Positions 2,417 through 18,193 of a stretch of DNA of 64,000 nucleotides are shown here, in pieces. How positions within the stretch are numbered: position 1 is the first letter of the stretch; the number at the start of each line of letters is the position of its first letter. The position numbers and the translations under genes are program-made. Source of the DNA: Chitinophagaceae bacterium IBVUCB2 (GTDB lineage Bacteria; Bacteroidota; Bacteroidia; Chitinophagales; Chitinophagaceae); contig NFUV01000001.1 in assembly GCA_002127295.1 (NCBI GenBank), forward strand, positions 682,001 to 746,000, in the 5' to 3' direction. The notes beneath the pieces were generated by a model that saw only the letters and a list, made by a program, of their open reading frames with translations, was not told the DNA's origin and ran no database searches.

Positions 2417-3034
2417 TCAGATCAATTCAAACTGCATTGCCATCTTAACCAATGAAGCTGTATTTCTCGCATCGAATTTTGCCAGCAAATTTTTGCGGTG
2501 TGTATCAACAGTTGTAGAGCTTATAAATAATTTTTCGGCAACTTCTACATTCGTAAGCCCGTCAGCAATCAATAATAATACTTCCTTCTCCCGCCTCGTA
2601 AGAACCGGAATATCTGTAGCTGACGTTTTATGTAAAGTTTTTGAGGCTTCATCACTTAAATAAGTTTTCCCTTTCGCTGCAGCTGATATTGCCTCCATCA
2701 ATTCTTCCCGGGTTGCATTTTTAAGCACATATCCCGAAGCTCCGTTATCCATCATTTTTTGAATAAAACTTTGTTGGTTAAAGGTGCTTAACCCAATTAT
2801 AAAAACAGAAGGATGTCTTTCTCTTACTTCTTTGCACAGGTCGATACCACTTTTATCAGGCAGGTTAATATCCATTAAGATCACATCCGGCAACTGATGT
2901 TCTAAAAAAGCAAGACAGGAAGATGCATTGGTAGCATGCCCAAACCAGTCAATATCTTTTTCATGCTGCAACAATGAGCGGATACCTTCTATAACCATAT
3001 AATGGTCATCAACTATAAAAACTTTAGTGATCAT
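2417..3034 (-). CDS. NarL/LuxR-family response regulator
   Basis: 205 residues. The N-terminal receiver domain has acidic residues in VDD (9-10), the phospho-acceptor Asp55 in LMDINLPDKSG, and the conserved Lys near residue 105 (YVLKNA). The C-terminal LuxR-type helix-turn-helix is LTRREKEVLLLIADGLTN followed by STTVDTHRKNL. The start ATG directly abuts the stop codon of the kinase at 3035-4990, so the two are co-transcribed and translationally coupled. That kinase is its likely partner; the convergent kinase at 1-2412 could also feed it. Targets are unknown; the neighbouring secreted-protein block at 5.1 kb is a candidate by position. Confidence 0.93.
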   Translation of the reverse strand: MITKVFIVDDHYMVIEGIRSLLQHEKDIDWFGHATNASSCLAFLEHQLPDVILMDINLPDKSGIDLCKEVRERHPSVFIIGLSTFNQQSFIQKMMDNGASGYVLKNATREELMEAISAAAKGKTYLSDEASKTLHKTSATDIPVLTRREKEVLLLIADGLTNVEVAEKLFISSTTVDTHRKNLLAKFDARNTASLVKMAMQFELI

Positions 3035-4990
3035 TTATAAGTTTATCTCAATATGAACAGATGTACCTCTACCCGGCGCAGATTGCACATCTAAATTACC
3101 TTTTAAATATTCAATACGACTTTGGATATTACTCCATCCTATGCCGTTTGCCCTTTGTAATATAGCGGTATTAAACCCTTTTCCGTCATCTTCAACAGTG
3201 ATATTAATAGCTTGTCCTTCTTTGCTTACCTGAACAATAGCCGTTTTGGCAGCTGCATGTTTCATGGTGTTATTTATTAATTCCTGTACGATTCTATAGA
3301 TCGTTATCGCTGTAGTTTGCTCCACATTTGCCTCTTGCATACCTATGGACTGGTAACTCACCTGCAGTGCACCCGATTGATTTATATCGTTACAAAAATC
3401 CTTTAATGCAGTATCCAATCCAAATTTCACCAATGCTTCCGGCATCATATTGTGTGCCACCCGACGCATTTCCTTGATTGAACTGTCCAGCATATCCATG
3501 CTGCGTTCAAAAGCCTGTTGATTATCAGGCGTCATTACCAGGTTTCCTTTCATAGTTTGAAATGAGTATTTAATGCCCGACAACATGCCCCCTAATCCAT
3601 CATGCAGGTCTTTTGCCAGGCGGGTTCGTTCCTGCTCCTCTCCTTTTAATACAGCTTCTGTAGCCGTCAATTGTTTTTCCGTTTCTAATTCGTTGATACG
3701 TTGTTGTTGAAACTTTTGTTTCGTTCGATAATTTCTATACCCAAGCAATGAAATGAGCAGCAACACTGCTGCACTTCCAATTAATATATAGTTAAGAGTA
3801 TTTTTTTGCTGAATAGTTAGCTGCTGCACCTTCCGGTTAGCCTCCAGGTCTTTTATCTGGGATTCCTTTTTTGCTGTTTCATATTTTTTTTCAAGATTGG
3901 CCGACTGTTGAGAAATTACTTCTCTTACCATTGTCTCAAGTATAGCATTACTTTCTGTATCGAATTTCAAACCATTCACTACATCATTCATTGCATAATG
4001 AATACTAGAGAGAACACCGAGTATTGAAGATTCTTCCTGTTTATAATTATTAGCACGGCATATTGCCAATGATTGTTCTGCATACTCCTTTGCTTTTAAA
4101 AAATCCTTTTTCTGCAAATAGCAAACAGCCAGTGCCCGAAGAGCTCCCGCTTCACCATCTATAGAACCAATTTGTTTATATAATGCAAGACTTCGTAAAG
4201 CAAAGATTTCCATTTTCCCATAATCCCCTTTCCGCATAAACACACTGGCCATATTCTGTGTGGCCACTGCTTCAATTCTTGTATCATTTATTTCTTTTGC
4301 TAGTTGCAGAGCTTCTTTTATTAAGCCTTCCGCTTTATCATATTCATTCGTTTCCAGGTATGCCAATGACAAATTCAACAATGGCTGCGGAAGAAACTCC
4401 TTCATTTTAAGTTCCCGTGCCTGTTGTACCGCTTTTACTCCAAAGGGTATGGCCTTTTGATATTCTGTGCGACTGTTATATAGTGCAAGCAACGCATCAT
4501 TCATCTGCACTTCGATCTTCTTATGTCCTTTTGCTTCCATGATCACTCTTCCTTCGAGGCAATATTCAATTGCCTTTTCGAAATTGGAAGCCTGGCGATA
4601 AGCGATACCAATATTAAATAAAGCTATACCTATATTTAAGGAATCTTTTGCCAGGCGGGATAAAGCAAGTGCCTGTTCATTAAAATACAACATAGAATCC
4701 AGGTTGCCTTCTACCATAAATGTGCTGCTGTAATAGGTAAAGAATTTAATAGACCCTGCTGTAAAACCAAGCTTGTTACTTAGTTCCCCAGCTTTCCGGT
4801 AATATTCTTTTGCTTTTTGGGGGTTGTTATTTTCGTAACTACTACCAATGTCAAAATATAGATGTACAGCTACTGTATCTTCTTTGGCCGATGTTGCTAA
4901 TTTCAACAAACTATCGGTTACATGATTTTGCGCCACGACAGTTTGGGCGCAAAGCGAATAGAAACAAATAATTAAAAGGAGTTTATGCAT
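3035..4990 (-). CDS. TPR-containing sensor histidine kinase
   Basis: 651 residues. A signal peptide (about 1-20, cleavage near VVAQ) exports an N-terminal array of tetratricopeptide repeats (about 40-350). A short coiled coil, one membrane span (about 400-418) and a linker coil follow. The HisKA_3 domain has its phospho-acceptor His463 in DLHDGLGG. The HATPase has N-box ELINNTMKH, then VEDDGKGFN and GIGWSNI. The architecture is typical of Bacteroidota kinases that sense through periplasmic TPRs. It forms a zero-gap operon with the response regulator and is divergent from the lipoprotein at 5160, sharing a 169-base upstream region. The signal sensed is unknown. Confidence 0.92.
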   Translation of the reverse strand: MHKLLLIICFYSLCAQTVVAQNHVTDSLLKLATSAKEDTVAVHLYFDIGSSYENNNPQKAKEYYRKAGELSNKLGFTAGSIKFFTYYSSTFMVEGNLDSMLYFNEQALALSRLAKDSLNIGIALFNIGIAYRQASNFEKAIEYCLEGRVIMEAKGHKKIEVQMNDALLALYNSRTEYQKAIPFGVKAVQQARELKMKEFLPQPLLNLSLAYLETNEYDKAEGLIKEALQLAKEINDTRIEAVATQNMASVFMRKGDYGKMEIFALRSLALYKQIGSIDGEAGALRALAVCYLQKKDFLKAKEYAEQSLAICRANNYKQEESSILGVLSSIHYAMNDVVNGLKFDTESNAILETMVREVISQQSANLEKKYETAKKESQIKDLEANRKVQQLTIQQKNTLNYILIGSAAVLLLISLLGYRNYRTKQKFQQQRINELETEKQLTATEAVLKGEEQERTRLAKDLHDGLGGMLSGIKYSFQTMKGNLVMTPDNQQAFERSMDMLDSSIKEMRRVAHNMMPEALVKFGLDTALKDFCNDINQSGALQVSYQSIGMQEANVEQTTAITIYRIVQELINNTMKHAAAKTAIVQVSKEGQAINITVEDDGKGFNTAILQRANGIGWSNIQSRIEYLKGNLDVQSAPGRGTSVHIEINL

Positions 4991-5086
4991 AATAAAAGAT
5001 AAAAGCTTTCCAGCACATTACAAATAAACCCAGTTACAACCGCTTTAACTCTCCCCTTTTTCCATGATTTTTTATATTCTTTAAAA

Positions 5087-5108
5087 TATCCTGTTTTTAA
5101 GGGATAGT
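5087..5108 (+). promoter_or_regulatory. Candidate operator: ATCC-N2-TTTTT-N1-AGGGATAGT element
   Basis: A 21-base element with an internal inverted repeat (TATCC at 5087-5091, GGATA at 5102-5106) lies 51 bases upstream of the lipoprotein start at 5160, in the divergent region shared with the kinase at 4990. The same element recurs at 14366-14386 with 18 of 21 identical bases. Role as a regulator or promoter site is inference from recurrence and position. Confidence 0.45.
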
Positions 5109-5115
5109 AATGATT

Positions 5116-5142
5116 AATATCAATATCATTTTTACAATATCA
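5116..5142 (+). repeat. Three direct copies of AATATCA upstream of the secreted-protein block
   Basis: AATATCA occurs at 5116-5122, 5122-5128 and 5136-5142, just upstream of the start at 5160. Short direct repeats next to an operon start can be regulator-binding sites, but the sequence is AT-rich and could recur by chance. Confidence 0.3.
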
Positions 5143-5159
5143 AACCTTAAATAACCAAT

Positions 5160-5666
5160 ATGAAAAAAATTCTCTTCGTAGTTGTAGTAAGTGGCCTCCT
5201 CATCGCTTGTAAAAAAGATACAGCGAATACCATTGACAATTCACAGCCTATTGAAAACACAGATTCCTACACAACTGATGCCCAAGTCAACAAAAAAACT
5301 CCACCATTATCACAGTATATAACTACTATTACCTGGCGGGGTGCCCGGGTTTGGTATACACCCACCGCCGCATGGGTTGATTCAGTAACAGCGGTAAATT
5401 TCTATTCCAACGGTACTGTTGAGTGGGTAAAACAAGGGTGGGAATTTGTACCAAGAACTCCGGGCACTTATTCCATTCAGGCCAATACCATCAATATTAA
5501 TTTCAGCTACCCTCCTTACACACACAGTTTACAGGGAAGTTATGACCGAACGACAGGTATAATCAGCGGCACTTTTACAGAAGAGAGAGCTCCTGATGCA
5601 ACTGCACCGCCAGTTTACTCACCCGGCACCACCACTGGTGATTTTAATTTTTACAAAAAAAATTAA
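5160..5666 (+). CDS. Small lipoprotein of unknown function
   Basis: 168 residues. The N-terminus MKKILFVVVVSGLLIAC is a lipoprotein signal peptide with lipobox LIAC; the mature protein begins CKKD. The body is rich in Thr, Tyr, Trp and Pro and reads as an all-beta domain (segments such as AVNFYSNGTVEWV and GTYSIQANTININF), resembling lipocalin-like or META-like small beta domains, though I recognise no family. It is the first gene of a run of co-directional exported proteins and lies 21 bases ahead of the next. It is probably membrane-anchored in the outer or inner membrane. Confidence 0.8.
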   Translation: MKKILFVVVVSGLLIACKKDTANTIDNSQPIENTDSYTTDAQVNKKTPPLSQYITTITWRGARVWYTPTAAWVDSVTAVNFYSNGTVEWVKQGWEFVPRTPGTYSIQANTININFSYPPYTHSLQGSYDRTTGIISGTFTEERAPDATAPPVYSPGTTTGDFNFYKKN

Positions 5667-5687
5667 TTCATTCTAATCGCATTTATC

Positions 5688-8102
5688 ATGAGCACAAAAT
5701 TACTGGTCGTTTCTTGTCTCTTACTGTTAGTTAATCTAACAGCATCTGCACAACCTAAACCTAAATCAAAACAGCCATCACAAGCCGACATGAACAAAAT
5801 GATGGAAGATGCCATGAAAGCAGAAGGTATGAGCAAAGAAGAGCAGGCTGAGATGAAAAAAATGATGGGAGATGTGATGCCGGAACTTATGAAAAGCAAT
5901 AGCAAGACGGCTTATTATCCTGAATTTACCAACAACACAGAATTAATCCCTAAGAAAGAAATTGCAAAAATAAATGCTATACCAAAGAAAAAATTAACGC
6001 AAGCCGATATAACTGGTTATGCTGCTAATCTATATAATAAACTGCTGGCAAAAGGCAATGCTGCGGAAATGGCCATTGTGAAAAAAGTAATCGCACAATC
6101 ACCCAATGCAGGTGATATTAGCGGCGCTGCTATTTTAGCCATGCAGCAAGGTCACCCACAGGCTGCAATGGCTTTAAGTATAAAAGCAGTTCAATTAAAA
6201 CCGGCCAATCCCAGTTACCAAAATAACATGGCCTCCTTACTTACACAGTATGGCTACGCTGAGCAGGCACTTCCGGTACTTCAGAAACTACGTAACGATT
6301 TTCCAAAAAATAGTACCGTAATGAATAACCTTGCCCATGCCTGGTTAGGACTTGGAGAAATTGACAGCGCAAATGCGATTATCAAAATGGCAGGTGGACT
6401 TAATCCCTACCATCCTGAGTCAAAAGATACAGAAGGTGTGATTGAAGAAACAAACGGCGATCCTGAAAAAGCCGCAGAAAATTATGAGTCCTCCATGGAA
6501 AATGCGCTTAACCCATTTACAGAACAATTGATAAAAAACAATAAGAGTAGTAAATCAGGGAAACTTGATTATGAAAAACTAAAACGCAGCATAACCATAT
6601 ACGAATACTTTCCAAAAGACTGGATAAAAATACCTGCTTTATCAGATAATGTTTCAGGATATGAAAAAGACAGGCAAATTCAAAATGGCTACGAAAAAAT
6701 GTTCGATGATCTGGAAGCAAAAATAAAATTACTGCAAGAAGCCAGCGAAAATGAAGTGAATGCATTGATGGATAAAGGAGATGATGTTTTTGCAAAAGAA
6801 ATGATGAAAGAATCGATAAAAGGGATAAATATGATGAGTAAACCTGCTGTTATTGTTCAGCTTGTATTACAAAATTATATGGCCGAATGGATGCCGCAAT
6901 ATGTACAGGAATACCAGGTATTATTAAATACAATTAAGGCTAAAAAGGAACAAATAACAAAAAGCGGTAAAGATGACAAATGCCCGGATTATGATCGAAA
7001 AAATAATGAATTTCTGAGCTATGCAAATCCACTCATCAGGGAATTTCATACAAGAAAAATTGAAGAATTCCGCATATGGCTTAATACTTTCTGTACATGG
7101 ATCTGGTACCTGACCGGCAATCCAAAAAACACGATGATGTCGCAATGTATTGGATGGACAAATGCAATAGCAGAGTTCTACAAGTCAGCGATTGCCGACC
7201 AAAGAGCCCTGGCAAGAACTTGTGTAGAACAAAATGGTGATGGTATAGACCCGGTCTCCACACCGGAAATTCCAAATTTCAGCTGCCCAACTTTAATAAA
7301 GATGCCGATGGGTTCTGATTGGCAAGACTTAAGTAACGCTGCTCAAAATTTTGATAACAACAAATATGCAATTAAAAAAACAGATATTCCCGTTCCCAAT
7401 CATACGGTAGGGTATGGAGTCAATCCTGCCTCAATTGCAGAACCTGGACGGGATCCATTTGTTAAGTCAGCCAACGGGAGTATGACTCCGGGAATGGCTA
7501 CTGATGACGAGCTGACTCCGTTGTCAAAAATACCCTTGGATGAACTGACTCCATTACCTAAACTTCCCAATGAAAATGATCCGGTTCCTCTCCCCGACCT
7601 CCGTAAAAGCAAACTAGCAAAAGAGTTGCTTAAGAAGATGATGTCAAGCGATTGTAAAAATGTAAGAAACTCGAAAGACATTCTCAAAGAACAACTGGAA
7701 AGAATGATGAAAGGGGTGAAAGAACTGGAAGCTTATGAAAATGTAATAGAGGAAATAAAGCGATTGGAAAATGAAATAGCACAAAAAGAAGCGGATGGGC
7801 AAAAAAGGGAACAATTAAAAAAACAAATGGAGCGGATACAGCAGGAAGTAGATAAGATGGACAAATATGAACAGGTGCAGCAATCAAAAAAAGAGATTGA
7901 AAAAATTATAAAAGAAATGGAAGCGATGGATGATAAAAAGATGATGAAAGAAAAGTTTGCTAAAATAATGGAGTCAGTGGATGAAATGGAAGCGGCTCCT
8001 GCTATTCTTAAAGGTATTCAACAAAATGGCCTGCAATCTTCCATCAGTAGTGGCTTACAGGCACCCGGAACATTCACACCACAAAAAGGATTATTCAACT
8101 AA
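5688..8102 (+). CDS. Large exported TPR and coiled-coil protein, function unknown
   Basis: 804 residues with a signal peptide (about 1-22, ending ASAQ). A Met/Lys/Glu-rich segment follows, with the repeated motif MNKMMEDAMK / MKKMMGDVMP. Tetratricopeptide-like helical repeats occupy about 150-290 (paired phrases such as LLTQYGYAEQALPVL and LAHAWLGLGEIDSANAI). The centre is helical and holds Trp- and Cys-containing stretches. A Pro-rich hinge (DELTPLPKLP-type repeats, about 600-640) leads to a long Lys/Glu/Met coiled coil (about 655-775). It may be a periplasmic or surface scaffold. It sits 12 bases ahead of the next gene, so co-transcription is likely. No catalytic motif is visible. Confidence 0.8.
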   Translation: MSTKLLVVSCLLLLVNLTASAQPKPKSKQPSQADMNKMMEDAMKAEGMSKEEQAEMKKMMGDVMPELMKSNSKTAYYPEFTNNTELIPKKEIAKINAIPKKKLTQADITGYAANLYNKLLAKGNAAEMAIVKKVIAQSPNAGDISGAAILAMQQGHPQAAMALSIKAVQLKPANPSYQNNMASLLTQYGYAEQALPVLQKLRNDFPKNSTVMNNLAHAWLGLGEIDSANAIIKMAGGLNPYHPESKDTEGVIEETNGDPEKAAENYESSMENALNPFTEQLIKNNKSSKSGKLDYEKLKRSITIYEYFPKDWIKIPALSDNVSGYEKDRQIQNGYEKMFDDLEAKIKLLQEASENEVNALMDKGDDVFAKEMMKESIKGINMMSKPAVIVQLVLQNYMAEWMPQYVQEYQVLLNTIKAKKEQITKSGKDDKCPDYDRKNNEFLSYANPLIREFHTRKIEEFRIWLNTFCTWIWYLTGNPKNTMMSQCIGWTNAIAEFYKSAIADQRALARTCVEQNGDGIDPVSTPEIPNFSCPTLIKMPMGSDWQDLSNAAQNFDNNKYAIKKTDIPVPNHTVGYGVNPASIAEPGRDPFVKSANGSMTPGMATDDELTPLSKIPLDELTPLPKLPNENDPVPLPDLRKSKLAKELLKKMMSSDCKNVRNSKDILKEQLERMMKGVKELEAYENVIEEIKRLENEIAQKEADGQKREQLKKQMERIQQEVDKMDKYEQVQQSKKEIEKIIKEMEAMDDKKMMKEKFAKIMESVDEMEAAPAILKGIQQNGLQSSISSGLQAPGTFTPQKGLFN

Positions 8103-8114
8103 TAAAACCTATAC

Positions 8115-9134
8115 ATGAAAAAGAGAATATTAATAATTACCGCTGTTTTTGTTGCACTTACTGCAACAGCCATCAAAGTTGTTGATGACATTATTACACG
8201 TCTCGGTATGGATCAAAAATTCGTACAAGGAAATATTGTAAGCAACCTTGTGGGAAGCTTTTCATCGGGTCCGATGAACACTTATGAAGATGCAGGCGGT
8301 TTTGCCGGCGACCAACCTGCCACTTTTAGGCTTCCTTATGTACCGAAGTTAAAGCTCTCCACTATAATTTCTGGCGATAAGGCCGCCGCTGCAAAAGAGC
8401 TATGTGAATATGTAAAAAAATATATCAATAGCGAAGAGTTTATCATTGAGTATAACAAACAGCGGGAAAGTGCTATGCCCCTTACTGACAATGGCACCAG
8501 CATCAGCACACTCAAAGCCAACACAATTGTGTTTCAAAAAAATATAAACAACTATAAAACGGATACCAAATACGTAGCCGAACAACAAAAGCAATTAGAT
8601 GAAACGCAAAAGAAAATTGATGCCCTGACAGAAGCCGCTAAAAAACCTTTCCCCGGTAAAGCGAATTGGGAAAAAAGATACCCAGCTGATCCTTCTTCTA
8701 TTGTAAAGAAGAGATTACAGGAGTACCTGCAATTAGTCGCTACTGTAGATTTTAATGCGGCATTAACCGCCCCCGACAAATACAATATCAAAAAATTTGT
8801 GAGCCCTGCCTTTGAAAAGAAACCAAATAAGTGGAAAGCTGTTTATCGTGCAGGTAAGGAGGTAAACGATGTAGTTACAGCTTTTGTAAAGGAATGGTTG
8901 AAAGGTGAAATTATTTCTTCTACCAAAACAAAAATGACAGCTAATTCATCCAGTACTCCAACAACAAATTCTACTACTAACCAAACCATCAATGAACCAG
9001 TTAAAACAACCAGTACTACTACTGTCATCACTAATGAATCACCTGTCGCTGCTTCCAATAACAAGGCAAAAGCAGATTCTACCAAACCCAAAAAATCATT
9101 GCTCAATAAAGTGAAAGGAAAAATTGGTTTTTAA
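8115..9134 (+). CDS. Exported protein with Ser/Thr-rich tail, function unknown
   Basis: 339 residues. The N-terminus (MKKRILIITAVFVALTATA) is a signal peptide or single anchor. The middle is mixed alpha/beta with a probable coiled coil (about 150-190, rich in Gln/Lys/Thr). Residues about 275-320 are low-complexity Ser, Thr, Asn and Pro, typical of a disordered linker, and the C-terminus is basic (KPKKSLLNKVKGKIGF). I recognise no family. It is 12 bases after the TPR protein and 9 bases before the next gene, within one apparent transcription unit. A basic tail after a disordered linker might contact membrane, nucleic acid or peptidoglycan, but this is a guess. Confidence 0.75.
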   Translation: MKKRILIITAVFVALTATAIKVVDDIITRLGMDQKFVQGNIVSNLVGSFSSGPMNTYEDAGGFAGDQPATFRLPYVPKLKLSTIISGDKAAAAKELCEYVKKYINSEEFIIEYNKQRESAMPLTDNGTSISTLKANTIVFQKNINNYKTDTKYVAEQQKQLDETQKKIDALTEAAKKPFPGKANWEKRYPADPSSIVKKRLQEYLQLVATVDFNAALTAPDKYNIKKFVSPAFEKKPNKWKAVYRAGKEVNDVVTAFVKEWLKGEIISSTKTKMTANSSSTPTTNSTTNQTINEPVKTTSTTTVITNESPVAASNNKAKADSTKPKKSLLNKVKGKIGF

Positions 9135-9143
9135 ATCAGTAGT

Positions 9144-11009
9144 ATGAAAAAAACACTCCTTCTGTTATTATTGGCCGGATGCATTAAACTCCATGCTCAA
9201 CCAGAATATGTTGACCGTCTTGGATTTAAACTTGAAAGCATTGCCGATATTGATATTGGCTGGATGAAAACCTATAAACAAACTGCTGCTCCAAAAGGGA
9301 AAACACTGGGCAACAGAATATATAGTGCTAAACAAATTGGATATACCCAACAATTTATAGAATGGATGCAGCAATCGTACCTGCCTAAAGGTTGCCTGGG
9401 AGATGCGGGTTATTTTCAAAATGCAATGCCAAAGTCTAGTGGTACCATGGGCAGCTATTGGAATGCAGTAAGTCCGCATTTAGCGGCACTTCCTCATTTG
9501 TATGGTGCATACTCCAAAGTATACATGTTTTTAAAGAAGGATGCGTTCGGAAAGTTTGTTCCGCAAAATAATTTTGCACAATATTGGTATATAGAGGCCA
9601 ATCAAATACAATACATCAGCGCACCGGTATCTTTTATTTCTTCTCCGGACCAATATTACTTTGTAATGCCCCATTATCAAAGTGATGCAGGCAGCGATTT
9701 TGTTGCCCATAAAGCAGACTACGATTTTTTAGGGTTCAGCACACACAAGAATATTCAACCTTACACAAGTTTCTATATTCCACCTAAAGTAATTAATGAC
9801 AACCCGCATTATATTGTCATAATGACCAAAACCGGAAAGCTGCCATTTGAAAATGTGACCATAGGAGAGTTTTTTGAAAGAGCAGAAGTTCAATTACCTT
9901 TTTGGCAAAAGGTCGGAAACTATTCAGCAGAATACCTGGCAACTGCCCGGCAAAACATGGCCCGGCTTAAAGAAAAATATAAAAATCAATTAACTAAAAT
10001 TGCAACATTGCAAGCTCCCTATGGTCAAATTGGTTTTATTGATTTTGTAAATGCGATACCCGGTAATACAGATTTTTTTGATAGTAATAATGGTAGCGCT
10101 AAATTCCCTATACAGAAAGTAAATAAAACTGCAATGGAACTTAGTAAAACCGATCAGCCACAATGGATCGTTGTCCGCTGGACGATGGGTATGTACAACA
10201 GTGCTTTCAATGTACACATGATGGAGAGTATTCTCAATAATTTCAATTTTGACTATTTATATAATTATTTCTTTGGTAGCAATAAAATAGCAGAGCCCTA
10301 TAAGCCTCTTCGTTCACCCTCCTACAAAGAGCAAATTGTAACGGAAGACGCCTCCAACAAAGCCAAGGCAGCTGCTAATGATAAAAACATTTTTTATTTT
10401 GAAGACTTCTCAGCTAATCCCATCAACAAACCTGTTAGTAACTGGAATAGTAGTTTAAGTAACGGGAAAAAAGCTGAAGTAAAACAAATAGCCGGCGACC
10501 CTAATAAATGGTTGGAATTACAGGGAAGAGATGCGTCTCCAAAAAATTTAAAATACCCTTTACCACAAAACTTTGAATTATCATTTGATCTTGTGGCATC
10601 CAAAGACATTCCGTGGGGAGCAAAAGCGTTTGAATTGTATCTCGGTACTAAAACCAATTACGACCAGATGATTTCCCCGGCAATTAAACTCAGAATAAGA
10701 GCTGGCTACGGTGGCAGATCCGGAGAAATTTCTATTCATGGAAATTTTGGTAAAGGCTATTTTGAAAATATAAACCCTTACTATGAAGCTACCGGATTTT
10801 CCAATGAGAAAGAACTCAACAAGGTGAATATTGTCCTGAAAAGAAAAGGCGAATCCCTGGAACTTTATATTGGCAAAAATAAAATTACGGAAATCGTTAA
10901 AGCTATTCCCAACACAACTTCGTTTAATTTTTTAAAGTTTATACACATGGGCAGTAATAGCGACCAGGAAAAATACTTTTTAAGTAATTTTAAAATCACC
11001 AACCAGTAA
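9144..11009 (+). CDS. Exported protein with C-terminal concanavalin/LamG-like domain
   Basis: 621 residues with a signal peptide (MKKTLLLLLLAGCIKLHAQ, cleavage after HAQ; the Cys is not in a good lipobox). Residues 20-400 form a domain I do not recognise, rich in Tyr, Phe and Asn. From about residue 414 (YFEDFS, then NKWLELQGRDA) to the end the pattern matches a jelly-roll LamG/concanavalin-like fold, with the usual 'FSLSFDL ... ELYLG ... NKVNIVLKRKGESLELYIG' style of strands. Such domains usually bind glycans or protein ligands outside the cell. It lies within the 5-13 kb unit, with 9- and 25-base gaps. Confidence 0.75.
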   Translation: MKKTLLLLLLAGCIKLHAQPEYVDRLGFKLESIADIDIGWMKTYKQTAAPKGKTLGNRIYSAKQIGYTQQFIEWMQQSYLPKGCLGDAGYFQNAMPKSSGTMGSYWNAVSPHLAALPHLYGAYSKVYMFLKKDAFGKFVPQNNFAQYWYIEANQIQYISAPVSFISSPDQYYFVMPHYQSDAGSDFVAHKADYDFLGFSTHKNIQPYTSFYIPPKVINDNPHYIVIMTKTGKLPFENVTIGEFFERAEVQLPFWQKVGNYSAEYLATARQNMARLKEKYKNQLTKIATLQAPYGQIGFIDFVNAIPGNTDFFDSNNGSAKFPIQKVNKTAMELSKTDQPQWIVVRWTMGMYNSAFNVHMMESILNNFNFDYLYNYFFGSNKIAEPYKPLRSPSYKEQIVTEDASNKAKAAANDKNIFYFEDFSANPINKPVSNWNSSLSNGKKAEVKQIAGDPNKWLELQGRDASPKNLKYPLPQNFELSFDLVASKDIPWGAKAFELYLGTKTNYDQMISPAIKLRIRAGYGGRSGEISIHGNFGKGYFENINPYYEATGFSNEKELNKVNIVLKRKGESLELYIGKNKITEIVKAIPNTTSFNFLKFIHMGSNSDQEKYFLSNFKITNQ

Positions 11010-11034
11010 TACGACCTAACATCAATTCATCTAT

Positions 11035-13131
11035 ATGAAAAATATTCTTTTCCTTACGGCAATACTTTTAATTGCCGGTCATACAGAAATAAAAAGCCAA
11101 TCTATAAAAGGTAAATATCGTTTTGTGGCAGACAGCGATGGTAAAGAAGCAAGTGCTAAGGCAATCATTACGCTGCAATTTCTCGATAACACTTTCAAGT
11201 TAAAGGCAGAACAACCCGGCAATATTGTGACCGACGATGGAACCTACCAGATTAGCGGAAACAAAATCACCCTTACTTTCAAAACAATGGAGCAGGGTAA
11301 GAAAACCGGCAACTTTACTTTTCAGAATGGCACCCTCACTCTCCCATTCAAAATGCTTAATAATGCCGCAGGAAGTTCCAGCTGGTTCAGTACTGCAACT
11401 GTTTCTCCTAATACAAGCACTAAAAAACAAGTTATTGATAATGCACTGGCAGGCTCAGTAACAAAAGCAAAACTGTATAAAGAATTAGACAGCCGGGCCA
11501 GCAAGGGTGCTGGAACGTTGAAAGGTGGTTTGGCAGAGGCATACTATGTTCAGGCAACGCTATATTATTTCAGGAACTATAAATGGGAATCTCTTTATGG
11601 TTTTGCAAAAGCGTCACAATTACAGGAAACCAATGCACTTTATTTAAATAACTTCTCCAACCTTTTGCTGGAGTTGGGCAGAATTTATGATGCCAAAGTA
11701 CTAACCGAAGAGCTTACAAAAAGCTTCCCGAACCTGGCTTCTCCCTGGGCTAACCAGGCATATATTTATTTTAAGTTAGGTAATAGTAAAGAGGCAGCTG
11801 AAGCCATTCAAATGGCCATGCGACTAGCACCCGACAACGGCTTATACTGTTATACTGCTGCAAAAATTGCTGAAGAACGAGGTAATAAAAGTGAAGCCGA
11901 TAATCTTATTGCAAAAGCATGGGGATTAGGTTATGCAGGAAATAGTCGTGAAGGTCAATCAAAGAATGGTAATGAAAACAATGCCAGCAATGCAAGCCCC
12001 ACAAAAAATAATAATGCAAATAATAGTACAAAAAATGCAACTAAACCACCTGTATCAGCAAAAAAACCGCCTACAGGTTATAAGCTAAGCGATTGGCAGG
12101 GAAATTACCAGGCGAAAAATATTTCGGCCCGAAGCGGAGAAAATGCAACAGATGCTAATACAAAATTTGGAGCAGGAATGGCAACAACAATTATCAACTT
12201 GCAAACATTAGCCTGCGTTAAAAAATTTTCGATGCAGATTTCCGCTAGTGGGAATATAACCGGAAGCGGCGAAATTATGTATGTATACCAGGGCAACGCA
12301 GCAAATGCTGTGGCCGGTATGATGCCTTCCGCTTATAGCTACAATGGATTTTCTACCTATATCAAAGATGGCTTTCAGATAAGACAATGGAATTTCACCG
12401 GTACTGTTACTGAGGACGGCCGTGTAGAAATACAAGGACTGCCTTCTGAAAAACTGGATCTGCGCAATGTAAATGAATGGCAAAAAATAACTCCCTGGAG
12501 TCCGCTACCACCCGATGCCGCAGGTGCAGCAATGAAAGGCCCTTTTCATTTGCAATTATACATGAGCGATAAAAAAGAACCTTTTATTTATATTGATCAA
12601 TCGCTGGCATTGAACGATAAACTTATAAAGAAGGTTCACTACACGGGGCTTATAGTAAAAACGAACGAAAACATTGCACCTACCTGTACCAATTTTGAAC
12701 CACCGGCACCAGAGAAATGTCCTGCTACAGAATCAATAAAAACTAAAATAGCCATCAGCTCAAAAGATTATATTTTCATTGATAACTCAAATACTTATAC
12801 AAAAGGGGCTGATGGAAAAGTGAACAAGCAATCCGATACGAAAGTAGCCAGTCCTAAAGAAGTTTCCACTGGTGTATCAGTTGGTGTGGAAGCAGGCATG
12901 CTATCCGGCGGTGCTGAGTTTAATACCGACGGCAGTTATGAATTTTCAGTTGGTGTGGGTATGGATGCAGGCTTGTTTGGAAAAGATAGCCCGATAAAAA
13001 TTAGTGAGAAATTTGAACTTATCTATGATTCAAAATGCGGATGGGGTGCAAGAGGTACCGTAGGCGCAGGCGGAGGCGGTATTGCAGAAGCTTCTGTTCA
13101 GGGAGTGATATTCTTTAATAAAGGATTGTAA
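11035..13131 (+). CDS. Exported TPR protein with Gly-rich C-terminal domain, function unknown
   Basis: 698 residues with a signal peptide (cleavage near IKSQS). An N-terminal small beta domain (about 22-115, SIKGKYRFVAD ... GTYQISGNKITLTF) resembles lipocalin-like repeats. TPR-like helices occupy about 155-310 (LLLELGRIYDAKVLTEEL, YFKLGNSKEAAEAIQMAM). An Asn/Lys/Pro-rich linker (about 305-345) precedes a large beta-rich domain with two CxxxE/CP-type Cys pairs. The last ~90 residues are strikingly Gly-rich (GVSVGVEAGMLSGG; GAGGGGIAEASVQG), as in small beta-barrel or pore-forming segments. The family is not recognised. It ends the tightly spaced part of the block; a 101-base gap with a hairpin follows. 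Confidence 0.75.
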   Translation: MKNILFLTAILLIAGHTEIKSQSIKGKYRFVADSDGKEASAKAIITLQFLDNTFKLKAEQPGNIVTDDGTYQISGNKITLTFKTMEQGKKTGNFTFQNGTLTLPFKMLNNAAGSSSWFSTATVSPNTSTKKQVIDNALAGSVTKAKLYKELDSRASKGAGTLKGGLAEAYYVQATLYYFRNYKWESLYGFAKASQLQETNALYLNNFSNLLLELGRIYDAKVLTEELTKSFPNLASPWANQAYIYFKLGNSKEAAEAIQMAMRLAPDNGLYCYTAAKIAEERGNKSEADNLIAKAWGLGYAGNSREGQSKNGNENNASNASPTKNNNANNSTKNATKPPVSAKKPPTGYKLSDWQGNYQAKNISARSGENATDANTKFGAGMATTIINLQTLACVKKFSMQISASGNITGSGEIMYVYQGNAANAVAGMMPSAYSYNGFSTYIKDGFQIRQWNFTGTVTEDGRVEIQGLPSEKLDLRNVNEWQKITPWSPLPPDAAGAAMKGPFHLQLYMSDKKEPFIYIDQSLALNDKLIKKVHYTGLIVKTNENIAPTCTNFEPPAPEKCPATESIKTKIAISSKDYIFIDNSNTYTKGADGKVNKQSDTKVASPKEVSTGVSVGVEAGMLSGGAEFNTDGSYEFSVGVGMDAGLFGKDSPIKISEKFELIYDSKCGWGARGTVGAGGGGIAEASVQGVIFFNKGL

Positions 13132-13177
13132 ATTTTGTTACCCGGCTTATCACGACTATCAGTTGTGGTTGAAAATA

Positions 13178-13203
13178 GAAGAATAGTACGTAATCTATTC
13201 TTC
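13178..13203. repeat. 9-bp inverted repeat (hairpin) between exported-protein genes
   Basis: Perfect arms GAAGAATAG (13178-13186) and CTATTCTTC (13195-13203) flank an 8-base loop. There is no T-run, so it is either a weak terminator or an RNA-processing stem between the TPR gene and the NHL gene. Confidence 0.4.
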
Positions 13204-13232
13204 CACTTCATTAATTGAAAATAAATACCATA

Positions 13233-14291
13233 ATGAAACAAACACTTTTCACTTTTGGGTGCTGCATTTTTATGTTAACTGTGTTTTCTCAGTCACCTGC
13301 TGTAAAGTTGCCCAGCACTCCCAAACAAATTGTTGTAGACAGTAAAGACAATGTCATTATACATGTTTATGGGGGAAAGATCATGAAAATTACTCCCGAT
13401 GGAAAGACTTCTTTTATTACTGAAGATATCCGGAAAGACATTAAAAGGTCCCCTTACCCCACTTGTGTAGCTATGACCATTGACGGGAAGGACAATATTT
13501 ATATGGCCGACCAGGATGAAGTGATTTGGAAACTTACTCCTGATGGGAAAGTTTCACTTTTTGCCGGTGTGCCTTTTATGAGTACAGTAAAAGATGGCGA
13601 TTTAAAAACTGCACAGTTCAGAGATATTGAGTTTATGGAAACAGATCCTTACGGGAATATTTATATAGCAGAAAGAGATAACACCAATAAAGATAATCTC
13701 GGAGATTTTTATCTTATCCGGAAAATAAGTACCAATGGGAAAGTAACCACTCTGGCCAATACAAGAGAACATGCCGAACTAAAAACAAAATGGATTGCGG
13801 GCATGGGAATAGATTCTGTTGGCAATATTTACCTCAGCGATGGCAATGGACGCTGTATAAAGAAAATTGCACCTGATGGAGAGGTAACCACCCTGGCAGG
13901 GCTCTGCAATAAAAGAGAATTTCATCCTGTTTATGTCCAAGGTGATATTGCAAAAGCTGAACTTATGTCGCCGGACGACATTCTCATCAATAAAAAAGGT
14001 GAAATAATTTTTTGTGATAGCCGGTTAAACCGAATTATCAAAATTGCCAATAAAAAAGTAAGCACAATTGCTGGCAATAGTGTCATTCAACCTAATAGTG
14101 TAAATATGGGTGGACGGTCAAAAGAAGGCTATAAAGATGGTAAAGCATTGACCGCACTCTTCAATTTCCCTTTGCACTGTGACATGGCAATTGACAGCAA
14201 ACAAAACATTTATATAATTGATGGTGGCAATGATTGTATCAGAAAATTATCTTTCGATGGCATAGTAACTACTTTTGCAACCGCAAAATAA
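13233..14291 (+). CDS. Exported NHL-repeat beta-propeller protein
   Basis: 352 residues from the ATG at 13233; an in-frame TTG 18 bases upstream would only add a hydrophilic prefix before the signal peptide (MKQTLFTFGCCIFMLTVFSQ), so I prefer the ATG. About five NHL blades are visible as repeated 'I-x-x-D-x-x-D/G-N-I-Y-I/L-A/S-D' and 'I-x-K-I-x-P-D-G-x-V-x-T-L-A-G' phrases, for instance GNIYLSDGNGRCIKKIAPDG. Propellers of this kind mediate protein or ligand binding outside the cytoplasm; no enzyme signature is seen. It lies in the secreted-protein block between the TPR protein and the paralogous pair. Confidence 0.88.
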   Translation: MKQTLFTFGCCIFMLTVFSQSPAVKLPSTPKQIVVDSKDNVIIHVYGGKIMKITPDGKTSFITEDIRKDIKRSPYPTCVAMTIDGKDNIYMADQDEVIWKLTPDGKVSLFAGVPFMSTVKDGDLKTAQFRDIEFMETDPYGNIYIAERDNTNKDNLGDFYLIRKISTNGKVTTLANTREHAELKTKWIAGMGIDSVGNIYLSDGNGRCIKKIAPDGEVTTLAGLCNKREFHPVYVQGDIAKAELMSPDDILINKKGEIIFCDSRLNRIIKIANKKVSTIAGNSVIQPNSVNMGGRSKEGYKDGKALTALFNFPLHCDMAIDSKQNIYIIDGGNDCIRKLSFDGIVTTFATAK

Positions 14292-14365
14292 ATCTATAGG
14301 TACATCCGCCTCCCGACCCATCCAAAAGCTAATTCTATAAGGCTAATTAAAGGTGATACTTAAAA

Positions 14366-14386
14366 ATCCCTTTTTTCAGGGATAGT
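14366..14386 (+). promoter_or_regulatory. Second copy of the ATCC-N2-TTTTT-N1-AGGGATAGT element
   Basis: ATCCCT (14366-14371) and AGGGAT (14378-14383) form a perfect 6-base inverted repeat, and the 21-base element matches the one at 5088-5108 at 18 positions. It ends 31 bases before the ATG at 14418. Two copies in front of two genes of the same block suggest a shared regulator. Confidence 0.45.
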
Positions 14387-14417
14387 TGCCCACCGGAAAA
14401 GACTTCATATTTACGGT

Positions 14418-15761
14418 ATGAAATACTTTTTATTGCTTTTGTTTCTGGCACTGAACAACTGTTCTTTTTCCCAGCAGCAAACCTTTGATATTACCCATTT
14501 TACACCTCCGCAAGGATGGAAAAAACAAAATAGCGAAAGTGCCATCCAGCTTACCAAAGAAGATGAAGCAAAAGGTACCTACTGTATGATTACTCTTTTT
14601 AAAGCAGTACCGGGCACCACTAATTCAAAAGAAAATTTCGATGTAGCCTGGACATCTGTAGTAAAAGAAATGGTGACCATTTCAACTGCTCCTGAAATGC
14701 AGCCTGCGATTAAAGAGAATGGCTGGGAAGCACAAAGTGGTTATGCCCCTTTTGAAAGCGATGGCAATAAAGGTGTTGCATTGTTAGTAACATCGAGTGG
14801 GTTTGAAAAAATGGTCAATATCATCATCTTGACAAATTCAGATATATACGAAAAAGATATTACCGACTTTTTAGGATCAATAGATTTTAAAACTCTTTCA
14901 ACGGATCAACCTGTTAAACCAACTACACAACCTGTAAAATCAACTACAAAAGCTGACGGGTTTACTTTTACTACTACCAATTTTGATGACGGCTGGAACA
15001 GTACTGTACAGGAAGATTGGGTGGAGGCTACTAAAGGAAATATCAAAGTGCTGATCCATTATCCCAATAAAAAAGCAGATGCGTATAATTCAGTTTTGCT
15101 GGATGGATTAAAAAATGCCTGGGATATTTTGGTTGCTCCAAGATACAGTTCAGCATCCAATATGGAGTTCAAACCTGTTACCGGCTGGCAATCGATCGAG
15201 TTTGCTGAAGCAGATATGGTTGAAAAAGATTCCCGCAAAAAAGTGTACGTCGTTTTATTTAAGATGAACTATTCTAACGGCAGTGGAAAATACCTTGAGT
15301 TTATTACTCCTGATAAAAAAACATTTGAACAGGCCTTCGGTGCTTACCACCAGGAATCGTATGGTTGGGAAAAAATGGAAAAGATGGCTACCTATAACAA
15401 GTTTGCCATAGCGGCTTCCGATCTTTCAGGTAAATGGACCAGTGATTTCTCCGGTGCTATCCAATATGTAAATGCCAACACAGGCCTTGATGCTGGAATG
15501 GATACACATGCCTCAGCTGAAAATTTCTTTATGGCTGCTAATAGCACTTATAAATGGGATTTAGGTGTTGCCAGCGGACAAGTGGGTAATATCAAATTCC
15601 AATCAGCTAAATCAACAGGTCGCTTTTCACTTCCCTCTAATTGGCAAGTAAAGTTTTCTGACATCTCCGGAAAACCGAGGACGTATAATGCATTTTTTTC
15701 CTGTATAAAAGGGCTGCGTATATTATGGTTAGATGATCGGCCCTTTGCAAAGGCAGAATAA
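14418..15761 (+). CDS. Exported protein, first of a tandem paralogous pair
   Basis: 447 residues with a signal peptide (MKYFLLLLFLALNNCSFSQ; the Cys has Asn before it, so cleavage by signal peptidase I near FSQ is likelier than lipidation). An N-terminal domain (about 20-155) begins FDITHFTPPQGWKKQ and resembles PsbP/DUF-type small alpha-beta domains. A Thr/Pro linker and a second domain from about 175 follow, opening with TTNFDDGWNSTVQEDWVE. It is closely similar over its whole length to the next gene: both contain EMQP, SGYAPF, FDDGWNSTVQEDWVE, LVAPRYS and YNKFAIAASD. Function unknown. A copy of the AGGGATAGT element lies upstream. Confidence 0.8.
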   Translation: MKYFLLLLFLALNNCSFSQQQTFDITHFTPPQGWKKQNSESAIQLTKEDEAKGTYCMITLFKAVPGTTNSKENFDVAWTSVVKEMVTISTAPEMQPAIKENGWEAQSGYAPFESDGNKGVALLVTSSGFEKMVNIIILTNSDIYEKDITDFLGSIDFKTLSTDQPVKPTTQPVKSTTKADGFTFTTTNFDDGWNSTVQEDWVEATKGNIKVLIHYPNKKADAYNSVLLDGLKNAWDILVAPRYSSASNMEFKPVTGWQSIEFAEADMVEKDSRKKVYVVLFKMNYSNGSGKYLEFITPDKKTFEQAFGAYHQESYGWEKMEKMATYNKFAIAASDLSGKWTSDFSGAIQYVNANTGLDAGMDTHASAENFFMAANSTYKWDLGVASGQVGNIKFQSAKSTGRFSLPSNWQVKFSDISGKPRTYNAFFSCIKGLRILWLDDRPFAKAE

Positions 15762-15772
15762 ACTATTAACCA

Positions 15773-15811
15773 AACCGTCTTTAATTATTAAGTAAATAAT
15801 TAAAGACGGTT
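15773..15811. repeat. Perfect 17-bp inverted repeat between the paralogous genes
   Basis: The left arm 15773-15789 (starting AACCGTC) and right arm 15795-15811 (ending GACGGTT) are perfectly complementary around a 5-base loop. There is no trailing T-run on either strand. It may be a strong mRNA stem that sets differential expression of the two paralogs, or a bidirectional terminator. Confidence 0.75.
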
Positions 15812-15829
15812 AACGCAAAATAAAGAGTT

Positions 15830-17209
15830 ATGAAAAAAATATTGTTATGCCTGTTAATATTGCAAGCCAGTTGTTCGGCAAAAACACAACAGCAAAGCTT
15901 TGATATTACAAATTATATCGCACCCAAAGGTTGGAAAAAGCAAACAACCGAATCTGCAATGCAGTTCAGTAAAGAAGACGCCACAACTGGTGGTTATTGC
16001 ATCATTACGCTATTAAAAGCTATACCGGCCAATGCCGGCGCAAAAGAAAATTTTGATGCAGCCTGGGAAACAGTTGTCAAAGAAATGGTGAAAGTTTCTG
16101 CTGCTCCAGAAATGCAGCCTTCGGCAACTGAAGATGGATGGCAGATACAAAGCGGTTATGCCCCCTTTGATAATGAAGGTGAGAAAGGCCTTGCCTTGTT
16201 GGTAACATCAACAGGTTATGACAAAATGGTAAACCTGCTTGTTTTAACTAATACCGATGTTTATGAAAAAGAGATGACGGCTTTTATCGAATCGATCAGT
16301 TTTAAAAAACAAACGCAAACGAATAACAACTCTTCTACTGATAAAAATAAAACACCGGTATCAGCTGCAAAAAAAGATGGCTTTGCTTTTAGCACTACTA
16401 ATTTCGATGATGGATGGAACAGCACTGTGCAGGAAGATTGGGTGGAGGTTACAAACGGAAATATAAAAGTATTGCTTCACTATCCGAGGGATGAAACAAT
16501 ATTTCCTGCAGACCCTGAACCATTAACCAATGCAGTATGGAATATTTTAGTTGCTCCCCGTTACAGCACCCTGAAAAATTATAAAACCGCCTATATCAGC
16601 ACATATAACCGGCCTTATCTGGGTATGGGCTATTTAACTGATAATAGCAGTCGTAAAGAAGTATTTGTCGTTCTTTTCCGGCAAGGAGATACTGGTTGGC
16701 TGGAGGTCATTGCGCCTGACAAGAACAGTTTCATTCAACAATTTAAATTTGATCCTGAAACAATACAATGGAATAGTGAAACAGATTTACTGAAACATTT
16801 ATTAGTAATGCCCGGCTATAATAAATTTGCGATTGCTGCCAGTGATTTTACAGGGAGCTGGTCAAGCGATTTTACAGGAATACAACAATTATACAATGTG
16901 TATACTGGCAATTATGCCGGTATGAATATGAACCAATCAAACGAAACCTTTCAATTCGGAGCCGGTAATACCTACAACTGGAAATTTCTTGCCGTAAATG
17001 GAATGGCGGGTAATGCAAAATTTGCACAGGTAAAATCGGCTGGAAAATTCACCGTATTAAACAACTGGCAGATAAAATTTTCTGATATTGAAGGCAGACC
17101 ACAAACATACCATGCACAATTTTCCTGTATCAAAGGAGCCCGGGTATTAAAATTATTAAATGCCCAATCTCCCGGTAGTGGTATCTACACAGTTTTTGGT
17201 AAGCAGTAA
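15830..17209 (+). CDS. Exported protein, second of the tandem paralogous pair
   Basis: 459 residues, with signal peptide MKKILLCLLILQASCSAKTQ. It shares the full layout of the upstream paralog: an N-terminal domain opening FDITNYIAPKGWKKQ, a Lys/Asn/Ser linker at about 160-180, then TTNFDDGWNSTVQEDWVE and a C-terminal domain with NKFAIAASDFTGSW and IKFSDIEGRPQTY. The C-terminus extends ~15 residues past the paralog (QSPGSGIYTVFGKQ). Tandem duplication is clear. Both copies keep intact frames, which suggests both are used. The function is unknown. It precedes fmt by 30 bases. Confidence 0.8.
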   Translation: MKKILLCLLILQASCSAKTQQQSFDITNYIAPKGWKKQTTESAMQFSKEDATTGGYCIITLLKAIPANAGAKENFDAAWETVVKEMVKVSAAPEMQPSATEDGWQIQSGYAPFDNEGEKGLALLVTSTGYDKMVNLLVLTNTDVYEKEMTAFIESISFKKQTQTNNNSSTDKNKTPVSAAKKDGFAFSTTNFDDGWNSTVQEDWVEVTNGNIKVLLHYPRDETIFPADPEPLTNAVWNILVAPRYSTLKNYKTAYISTYNRPYLGMGYLTDNSSRKEVFVVLFRQGDTGWLEVIAPDKNSFIQQFKFDPETIQWNSETDLLKHLLVMPGYNKFAIAASDFTGSWSSDFTGIQQLYNVYTGNYAGMNMNQSNETFQFGAGNTYNWKFLAVNGMAGNAKFAQVKSAGKFTVLNNWQIKFSDIEGRPQTYHAQFSCIKGARVLKLLNAQSPGSGIYTVFGKQ

Positions 17210-17239: not shown

Positions 17240-18193
17240 ATGAAAGATTATCAATCATTACGAATCATTTTTATGGGAACACCTGAATTTGCTGTTGCAT
17301 CATTAGATGCATTAGTAAAAGCTGGTTGTAATATCGTAGCAGTCATTACAGCTCCCGATAAACCGGGTGGCAGGGGGATGAAATTACAACAAAGTGCCGT
17401 AAAAAAATATGCCATTGAACATACTCTTCCCGTTCTTCAACCAGAAAAATTAAAGAACCCGGAATTTTTAGCGGAGCTACAATCCCTGCATGCAGATGTA
17501 CAAGTTGTAGTGGCATTCAGAATGTTGCCCGAAATTGTTTGGAATATGCCTCCAATGGGTTCTGTTAACCTGCACGGGAGCTTGCTGCCGCAATATCGTG
17601 GGGCAGCACCTATTAATTGGGCCGTTATTAACGGAGAAAAAGCAACCGGCGTAACTACTTTTAAATTAAAACATGAAATCGATACCGGTGATATCCTGTT
17701 ACAGGAGTCTTTTCCCATTGGAGAAAACGATACGGCCGGCGAAGTACACGATAAAATGAAGGATATCGGAGCACAACTAATAGTTAAGACCATTAAAGGA
17801 TTAGCTGACGGATCATTAAAAGAAATGCCCCAACAGCAAACACTAACCACCCAAAATGAAACCTTACTACATGCGCCGAAAATCAATACAGATACCTGCA
17901 GAATAAACTGGAGCAAGCCTGTGGAAGAAGTATTTAATATGGTTCGTGGATTAAGCCCCTACCCGGCTGCATTTACAATTATGAATGAAAAAATGCTGAA
18001 GATCTATAAAGCAAAAAAAGAATTTACAACTCCCACCCATACGGAAGGCGAGTATGAAACCGATGGAAAAACATTTTTAAAAATCGCCTGCACCAATGGC
18101 TACCTGCATTTATTGGAAATACAATTAGAAGGCAAGAAAAAAATGGGCATTGAAGAATTTCTTCGTGGATTCAGAAATGCTGCTAACAAATAA
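17240..18193 (+). CDS. fmt: Methionyl-tRNA formyltransferase
   Basis: 317 residues. The enzyme transfers a formyl group from 10-formyltetrahydrofolate to Met-tRNA(fMet) for initiation. The N-terminal Rossmann-type catalytic domain opens IIFMGTPEFAV. The catalytic triad is visible as Asn110 and His112 (VNLHGSLLPQYRGAAP) and Asp148 (DTGDIL). The C-terminal OB-fold tRNA-binding domain (about 210-310) includes RGLSPYPAAF. Length matches the family (about 310-315). It follows the exported-protein block on the same strand and converges with the LysM gene with a 7-base gap. Confidence 0.97.
   Translation: MKDYQSLRIIFMGTPEFAVASLDALVKAGCNIVAVITAPDKPGGRGMKLQQSAVKKYAIEHTLPVLQPEKLKNPEFLAELQSLHADVQVVVAFRMLPEIVWNMPPMGSVNLHGSLLPQYRGAAPINWAVINGEKATGVTTFKLKHEIDTGDILLQESFPIGENDTAGEVHDKMKDIGAQLIVKTIKGLADGSLKEMPQQQTLTTQNETLLHAPKINTDTCRINWSKPVEEVFNMVRGLSPYPAAFTIMNEKMLKIYKAKKEFTTPTHTEGEYETDGKTFLKIACTNGYLHLLEIQLEGKKKMGIEEFLRGFRNAANK

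Follow-up and report, generated by a model that had tools for sequence, protein, structure and literature searches.

A modular cassette of exported proteins with an adjacent two-component system and a putative palindromic operator in a Chitinophagaceae genome

The eight-gene block at positions 5160–17209 of the window (the whole stretch of 64,000 nucleotides analysed here) is best read as the local version of a modular exported-protein cassette, which forms a narrow regulon with an adjacent two-component system and whose products act as an envelope module; we put the probability of this reading at roughly 0.7. It is directly supported by the gene content, the conservation of the cassette, an 18-bp box and its spacing, the presence of two box types in one genome, and the predicted folds. 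The co-regulated envelope module is well supported, and the two-component regulon with its defined putative operator is a stronger finding than the gene set itself. A row of unannotated exported proteins becomes in this way a testable regulon with a kinase, a regulator, a putative operator and a promoter geometry. To our knowledge, few operators of such regulators have been identified in environmental Bacteroidota.

We propose that the TPR kinase senses something extracytoplasmic and phosphorylates the NarL-type regulator, a dimer of which would bind an 18-bp palindrome centred near −43 and activate weak promoters, one before gene 1, one before gene 7, and those of unlinked gene-7-type genes. 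The exported PsbP/DcrB-type, TPR, jelly-roll and propeller proteins would function in the periplasm or on the cell surface, and the versions of this envelope module in relatives would add an M48 peptidase and a protein of the Hcp fold. We infer that the regulator encoded in the window binds the box and activates, and that the products cooperate in the envelope. An envelope-stress or surface-remodelling response is our best, though tentative, guess for the role.

All eight open reading frames of the block lie on the plus strand, with gaps of 21, 12, 9, 25, 101, 126 and 68 bp; the positions, common direction and 9–126-bp gaps given in the initial annotation are reproduced in the list of open reading frames. 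The N-terminus is strongly hydrophobic in all eight proteins and, judged from this hydrophobicity, represents an export signal or anchor, in agreement with the signal peptides originally claimed; gene 3 could have an uncleaved anchor. Gene 1 (5160–5666) encodes a lipoprotein (lipobox LLIAC) that is lipocalin-like by eye, and its relatives sit near the cassette head at L077, L080 and L098. Gene 2 (5688–8102) encodes an exported TPR protein and gene 6 (13233–14291, with an in-frame TTG at 13215 as a possible alternative start) an NHL/SGL-type beta-propeller, Pfam matches to TPR_19 (PF14559, 6.5e-9) and TEN_NHL (3.1e-15) confirming both earlier assignments. The product of gene 3 (8115–9134) is helical and exported or anchored, with a Ser/Thr/Asn-rich tail (15-row alignment). 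In gene 4 (9144–11009), an N-terminal domain without a known match is followed by a ConA-like jelly roll; it is to this C-terminal part, by predicted structure and Foldseek, that the earlier LamG-like label applies. Gene 5 (11035–13131) combines lipocalin-like and TPR regions with a Gly-rich C-terminal part, and its description as a TPR protein is backed by a weak TPR match, found together with a weak lipocalin match. Gene 7 (14418–15761) encodes an exported protein with two predicted PsbP/DcrB-type domains, a C-terminal beta-barrel and the signature TTNFDDGW. Gene 8 (15830–17209) is its paralog at approximately 51% identity, as the initial annotation had recognised. Separate orthologs of genes 7 and 8 are both present at L022, indicating that the duplication predates that split. 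Searches of Pfam, PHROGs and PADLOC gave no family match for genes 3, 4, 7 and 8, PDB sequence searches with genes 7, 4 and 3 gave nothing useful, and no plasmid relatives of gene 4 were found. A phage origin and a known defence system were considered for the block and rejected, the PHROGs and PADLOC searches having given weak matches only. Co-transcription of genes 1–6 is assumed from the gap sizes.

The unit should also take in the gene pair at 2417–4990 on the minus strand, which runs divergent from the block. The NarL/LuxR-family response regulator (2417–3034), the proposed activator of the cassette, carries the recognition helix TVDTHRKNLL. The sensor histidine kinase (3035–4990) has a signal peptide, an extracytoplasmic TPR region (TPR_12, 2.9e-24), one transmembrane segment by sequence, and HisKA_3 (4.7e-12) and HATPase_c (2.3e-13) domains. 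With the receiver and HTH domains of the regulator read from its sequence and a homolog alignment, the pair has the composition of a two-component system. It is similar to the NarL/LuxR-type systems in its HisKA_3 kinase, HTH response regulator, palindrome near −43 and divergent target, but differs from them in the TPR sensor, the box sequence and the exported-protein regulon, and none of this kind is described in the literature searched. At the far end of the block, fmt (17240–18193, plus strand; Formyl_trans) is a recurring flank of the cassette in many relatives and lies outside the system. A second sensor kinase (37–2412), cut by the window start, converges on the regulator gene; this order (>HK <RR <HK) is also found at L106.

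The intergenic regions between kinase and cassette contain an 18-bp palindrome of the ATCCC-N8-GGGAT type, in many cases as two tandem copies 36–39 bp apart. The motif common to the kinase upstream regions is ATCCCCTTTTTAnGGGAT (22.8 bits). Of 54 such regions, 38 have the box, compared to 0.4 in Markov controls, and 22 have box pairs 34–44 bp apart, compared to none in controls. Three boxes are found on the plus strand of the window. Box 1 (CTCCCCTTTTTCCATGAT, 5051–5068; PWM score 26.0 bits), which is poorly symmetric, is the upstream member of a pair with a distance of 37 bp, and box 2 (ATCCTGTTTTTAAGGGAT, 5088–5105; 26.4 bits) is the promoter-proximal member; box 3 (ATCCCTTTTTTCAGGGAT, 14366–14383; 24.9 bits) indicates a candidate internal promoter in the 126-bp gap before gene 7. 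The matrix was trained on the kinase upstream regions, and the loci were then scanned, reduced and de-duplicated. This yielded 127 sites, 51 of which lie upstream of kinase genes, the type of region used for training. Among the 76 sites outside the training regions, in loci that were fetched around gene 7 and are not a random sample, 53 are followed within 200 bp by a cassette gene on the same strand; positions of this kind account for 1.9% of all strand-positions. The other 23 have no recognised cassette gene behind them. The reversed matrix gave no sites on the same loci. The box also precedes unlinked copies of gene 7 and of gene 5, the latter at L033 and L055.

The position of the box relative to the promoter is also conserved. 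Across 83 sites, a TT at +44/+45 from the box start is 91–92% conserved, accompanied by an A at +41. The box-to-−7 spacing holds for boxes 2 and 3 in the window: a degenerate, TAnnTTTG-like −7 element at 5128–5135 (plus strand) shows the TT spacing from the box ahead of the gene 1–6 transcript, and a −7-like element, CATATTTA, at 14406–14413 (plus strand) would serve as the gene 7 promoter and predicts a near-leaderless mRNA. The predicted transcription starts lie near 5140 and at or near 14418. TAnnTTTG is the published −7 consensus (PMC6847099; PMC9723704), and the published numbering places the box at about −52 to −35 with its centre near −43. The −7 element of the box-bearing promoters is poor and their −33 element is not clear; combined with a box near −43, this has the appearance of an activator-dependent promoter. 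Sigma-70 and terminator scans of the block performed no better than shuffles. An RNA hairpin or terminator, in place of an operator, is suggested by box 3, which is listed among the terminator-like sites of the minus strand. We consider this extremely improbable, given that the sites lie upstream of genes at a fixed spacing to the −7 element with pair members 36–39 bp apart, that box 1 has poor symmetry, that box type follows the regulator subtype as described below, and that terminator-like matches in the block do not exceed those in shuffles.

Since the scanned loci were chosen around gene 7, a whole-genome pattern test also matters. The box plus spaced TT, a pattern that was designed after the sites were known and that rests on few matches, has ten separate matches across the 4.0-Mb genome compared to one for the control. 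Five of these are accounted for by the two boxes of the window pair, box 3 ahead of gene 7, and the sites before two other gene-7-type genes; the remaining five, which lie inside open frames on the opposite strand, we attribute to chance. Applied mechanically, the same criterion would also place box 3 and the site at C2:940988 within an open frame, but each directly precedes the start of a gene-7-type gene. All intergenic matches genome-wide precede the window cassette or gene-7-type genes and, at the pattern level, no box pair other than that of the window occurs in the genome. One of the two other gene-7-type genes encodes a single-domain exported protein (L182, G000:C1:130678-131184), which was missed by the first protein search and was found by the DNA pattern, and later by a profile. 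The box alone retrieves unlinked members, which makes it a handle for finding function.

The same genome contains a second TPR-kinase/response-regulator locus (L056, G000:C2:34492-38004), which has its own tandem boxes of an ATCAT type and encodes a gene-7-like protein; another ATCAT box there precedes the gene for an exported protein of 183 aa. Three of only four ATCAT boxes genome-wide are found at this locus; no CCC-type box was found there and no ATCAT box in the window. Most regulators with a TVD(T/S)(H/Y)RK helix are associated with CCC-type boxes, a few of the TVD type being without a recognisable box, and two regulators with TVN/TAN-THRKS helices are associated with ATCAT-type sites; regulators of the other kinase type have no such box. 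Comparison of the sequences suggests that box type follows the subtype of the recognition helix, this being an association and not a measure of binding. With two paralogous systems that carry different palindromes, this genome is well suited to testing how specific the regulators are. Palindromes of the GGTGTTAACACC type were seen upstream of the kinase in a different kinase subfamily, at L034:978-1012 (in tandem) and L028:14366-14377.

We examined the cassette in relatives using 77 named loci fetched from the gene 7 alignment, for a total of 78 with the window, and using genus searches with genes 2, 3, 4, 5 and 7 as queries followed by locus maps; a single-sequence search of genome contigs with gene 2 found nothing. 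The initial annotation had named homologs that are scattered and never adjacent as the outcome that would speak against a common assembly. The synteny check gave a different result, with at least one partner family in the gene-7 directon at 56 of the 78 loci and at least two at 50. Gene 4 is a directon partner at 36 loci, gene 2 at 32 and a mixed PGTW/propeller cluster at 31, with gene 3 (15), Hcp-like (14) and M48 (10) as rarer partners; about a quarter of the gene-7 loci have no partner family nearby. A kinase of the same cluster is found inside the fetched stretch at 35 of the 78 loci, many of the 78 stretches being truncated at contig ends. In the genus, the stretch from the kinase pair to fmt often holds variable exported genes from the same families, full-length gene-4 matches sit in such cassettes, and the non-self gene-3 matches are inside cassettes in eight of eight cases. 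Gene 5 often lies away from the cassette, the occurrence of gene 1 varies, and gene-7 copies are also found alone. Cassette records span Chitinophagaceae, Sphingobacteriaceae, Flavobacteriaceae and Cytophagales, and include Pedobacter, Mariniflexile, Lutibacter and Polaribacter; Pedobacter ginsenosidimutans and Terrimonas pollutisoli are examples of cultivable species that carry it. Gene 7 is patchy, being present in 3 of 248 genomes of an even phylum sample, and gene-4 matches in that sample are mostly to the C-terminal part alone. Cassette-type loci also appear in records named Chloracidobacterium, Armatimonadetes, Tepidiphilus and Thiobacillus (L076, L105, L128 and L131), which are probably mis-binned Bacteroidota contigs.

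These data modify the initial view of the eight genes as one set: the families do recur together, but membership is modular and not a fixed eight. Families that join the cassette in relatives are PF05638 Hcp, M48 peptidase, SET, YadA_head/S74 fibres, Fib_succ_major and PD40 propellers, so that the earlier statement that no enzyme is visible is true of the window but does not extend to relatives with M48 and SET genes. The cluster first labelled as propeller is mixed, consisting of PD40 propellers and a separate PGTW-type family that are joined by fusions. Fusions between cassette families include C11 with a propeller (L040:7053-9986, 977 aa) and a PGTW-type protein with a PD40 propeller (L120:11389-14157, 922 aa); OmpA domains are borne by 3 of 35 gene-4 relatives. 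The fusions and OmpA domains hint that the products may form one physical assembly. The suggestion that the set is undescribed also stands, in that the genes belong together and neither cassette nor box was found described in the literature searched. A potential concern is whether the genes share a regulatory neighbourhood only, the stretch between kinase pair and fmt being a variable island that collects unrelated exported proteins without joint function. Its highly variable content, the unlinked members and the solitary gene-7 copies are consistent with such an island. However, the same families occur together in distant genera (Pedobacter, Mariniflexile, Lutibacter), where they are located elsewhere in the genome and lack the fmt flank, unlinked members bear the same box, and cassette families are fused to each other, and we regard the island explanation as unlikely.

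Function in the envelope module was also approached through predicted structures. The AlphaFold2 model of gene 7 has high local confidence (mean pLDDT 91.8) and a pTM of 0.61, the latter making domain placement uncertain. Foldseek recovered the PsbP/Mog1 fold, with matches to PsbP, DcrB, MTC28/Apa/LpqN, Tsi3 and the Eag chaperones EagT6 and SciW (best E 3.4e-4, probability 1.00). Genes 7 and 8 are predicted to encode two PsbP/DcrB-type domains and a beta-barrel. Their N-terminal domains resemble the PsbP/DcrB/Mog1 group (DUF1795), which includes LpqN, Apa, Tsi3 and EagT6, in predicted fold, but differ from it in an identity of only about 10%, the tandem domains with beta-barrel, and the lack of a Pfam match: no relevant Pfam match, such as to a DcrB/PsbP (DUF1795) profile, was found among 30 gene-7 members, and no PDB sequence match. 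DcrB is a membrane-anchored periplasmic protein (PMC7716261). For gene 4 (pLDDT 87), the C-terminal jelly roll was matched by Foldseek in the PDB, and none of the top matches was specific to the N-terminal domain. Many of these top matches are receptor-binding domains of clostridial toxins, and others are glycosidases, at 10–16% identity; the matches reflect the common jelly-roll fold and do not point to a toxin, and this fold is all that the domain shares with ConA-like (LamG-type) lectins as well. Both the PsbP/DcrB and the jelly-roll folds are widespread, and fold alone gives no function.

The presence of Tsi3, EagT6 and SciW among the PsbP-fold matches raises the question of whether the cassette is used in interactions with phages or other bacteria, in adaptor, immunity or adhesin-like roles. 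Exported Hcp-like proteins in relatives, two of three tested scoring above the PF05638 cut-off, the YadA/S74 fibres of relatives, and the multi-copy, patchy occurrence of gene 7 point in the same direction. We nevertheless consider such a role quite unlikely: the likeness is at the fold level only, PsbP and DcrB match equally well or better, the products are exported, and the block is without a toxin or baseplate gene or a PADLOC system. The Hcp-like protein of relatives matches the type VI family PF05638 but has an apparent signal peptide, the window is without Hcp, and no other type VI secretion gene was noticed in the loci. A very unlikely extension of the envelope module is that the products of the full cassette, all controlled by a single two-component system dedicated to them, assemble into an extracytoplasmic structure that is independent of any type VI machine. 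It would consist of YadA/S74 fibres, PsbP/Eag-type adaptors and the exported protein of the Hcp fold, the window then holding a reduced version. Within gene 7, a 21-bp tandem repeat at 14907–14955 of the window encodes a Pro/Thr/Lys linker that joins the PsbP-type domains.
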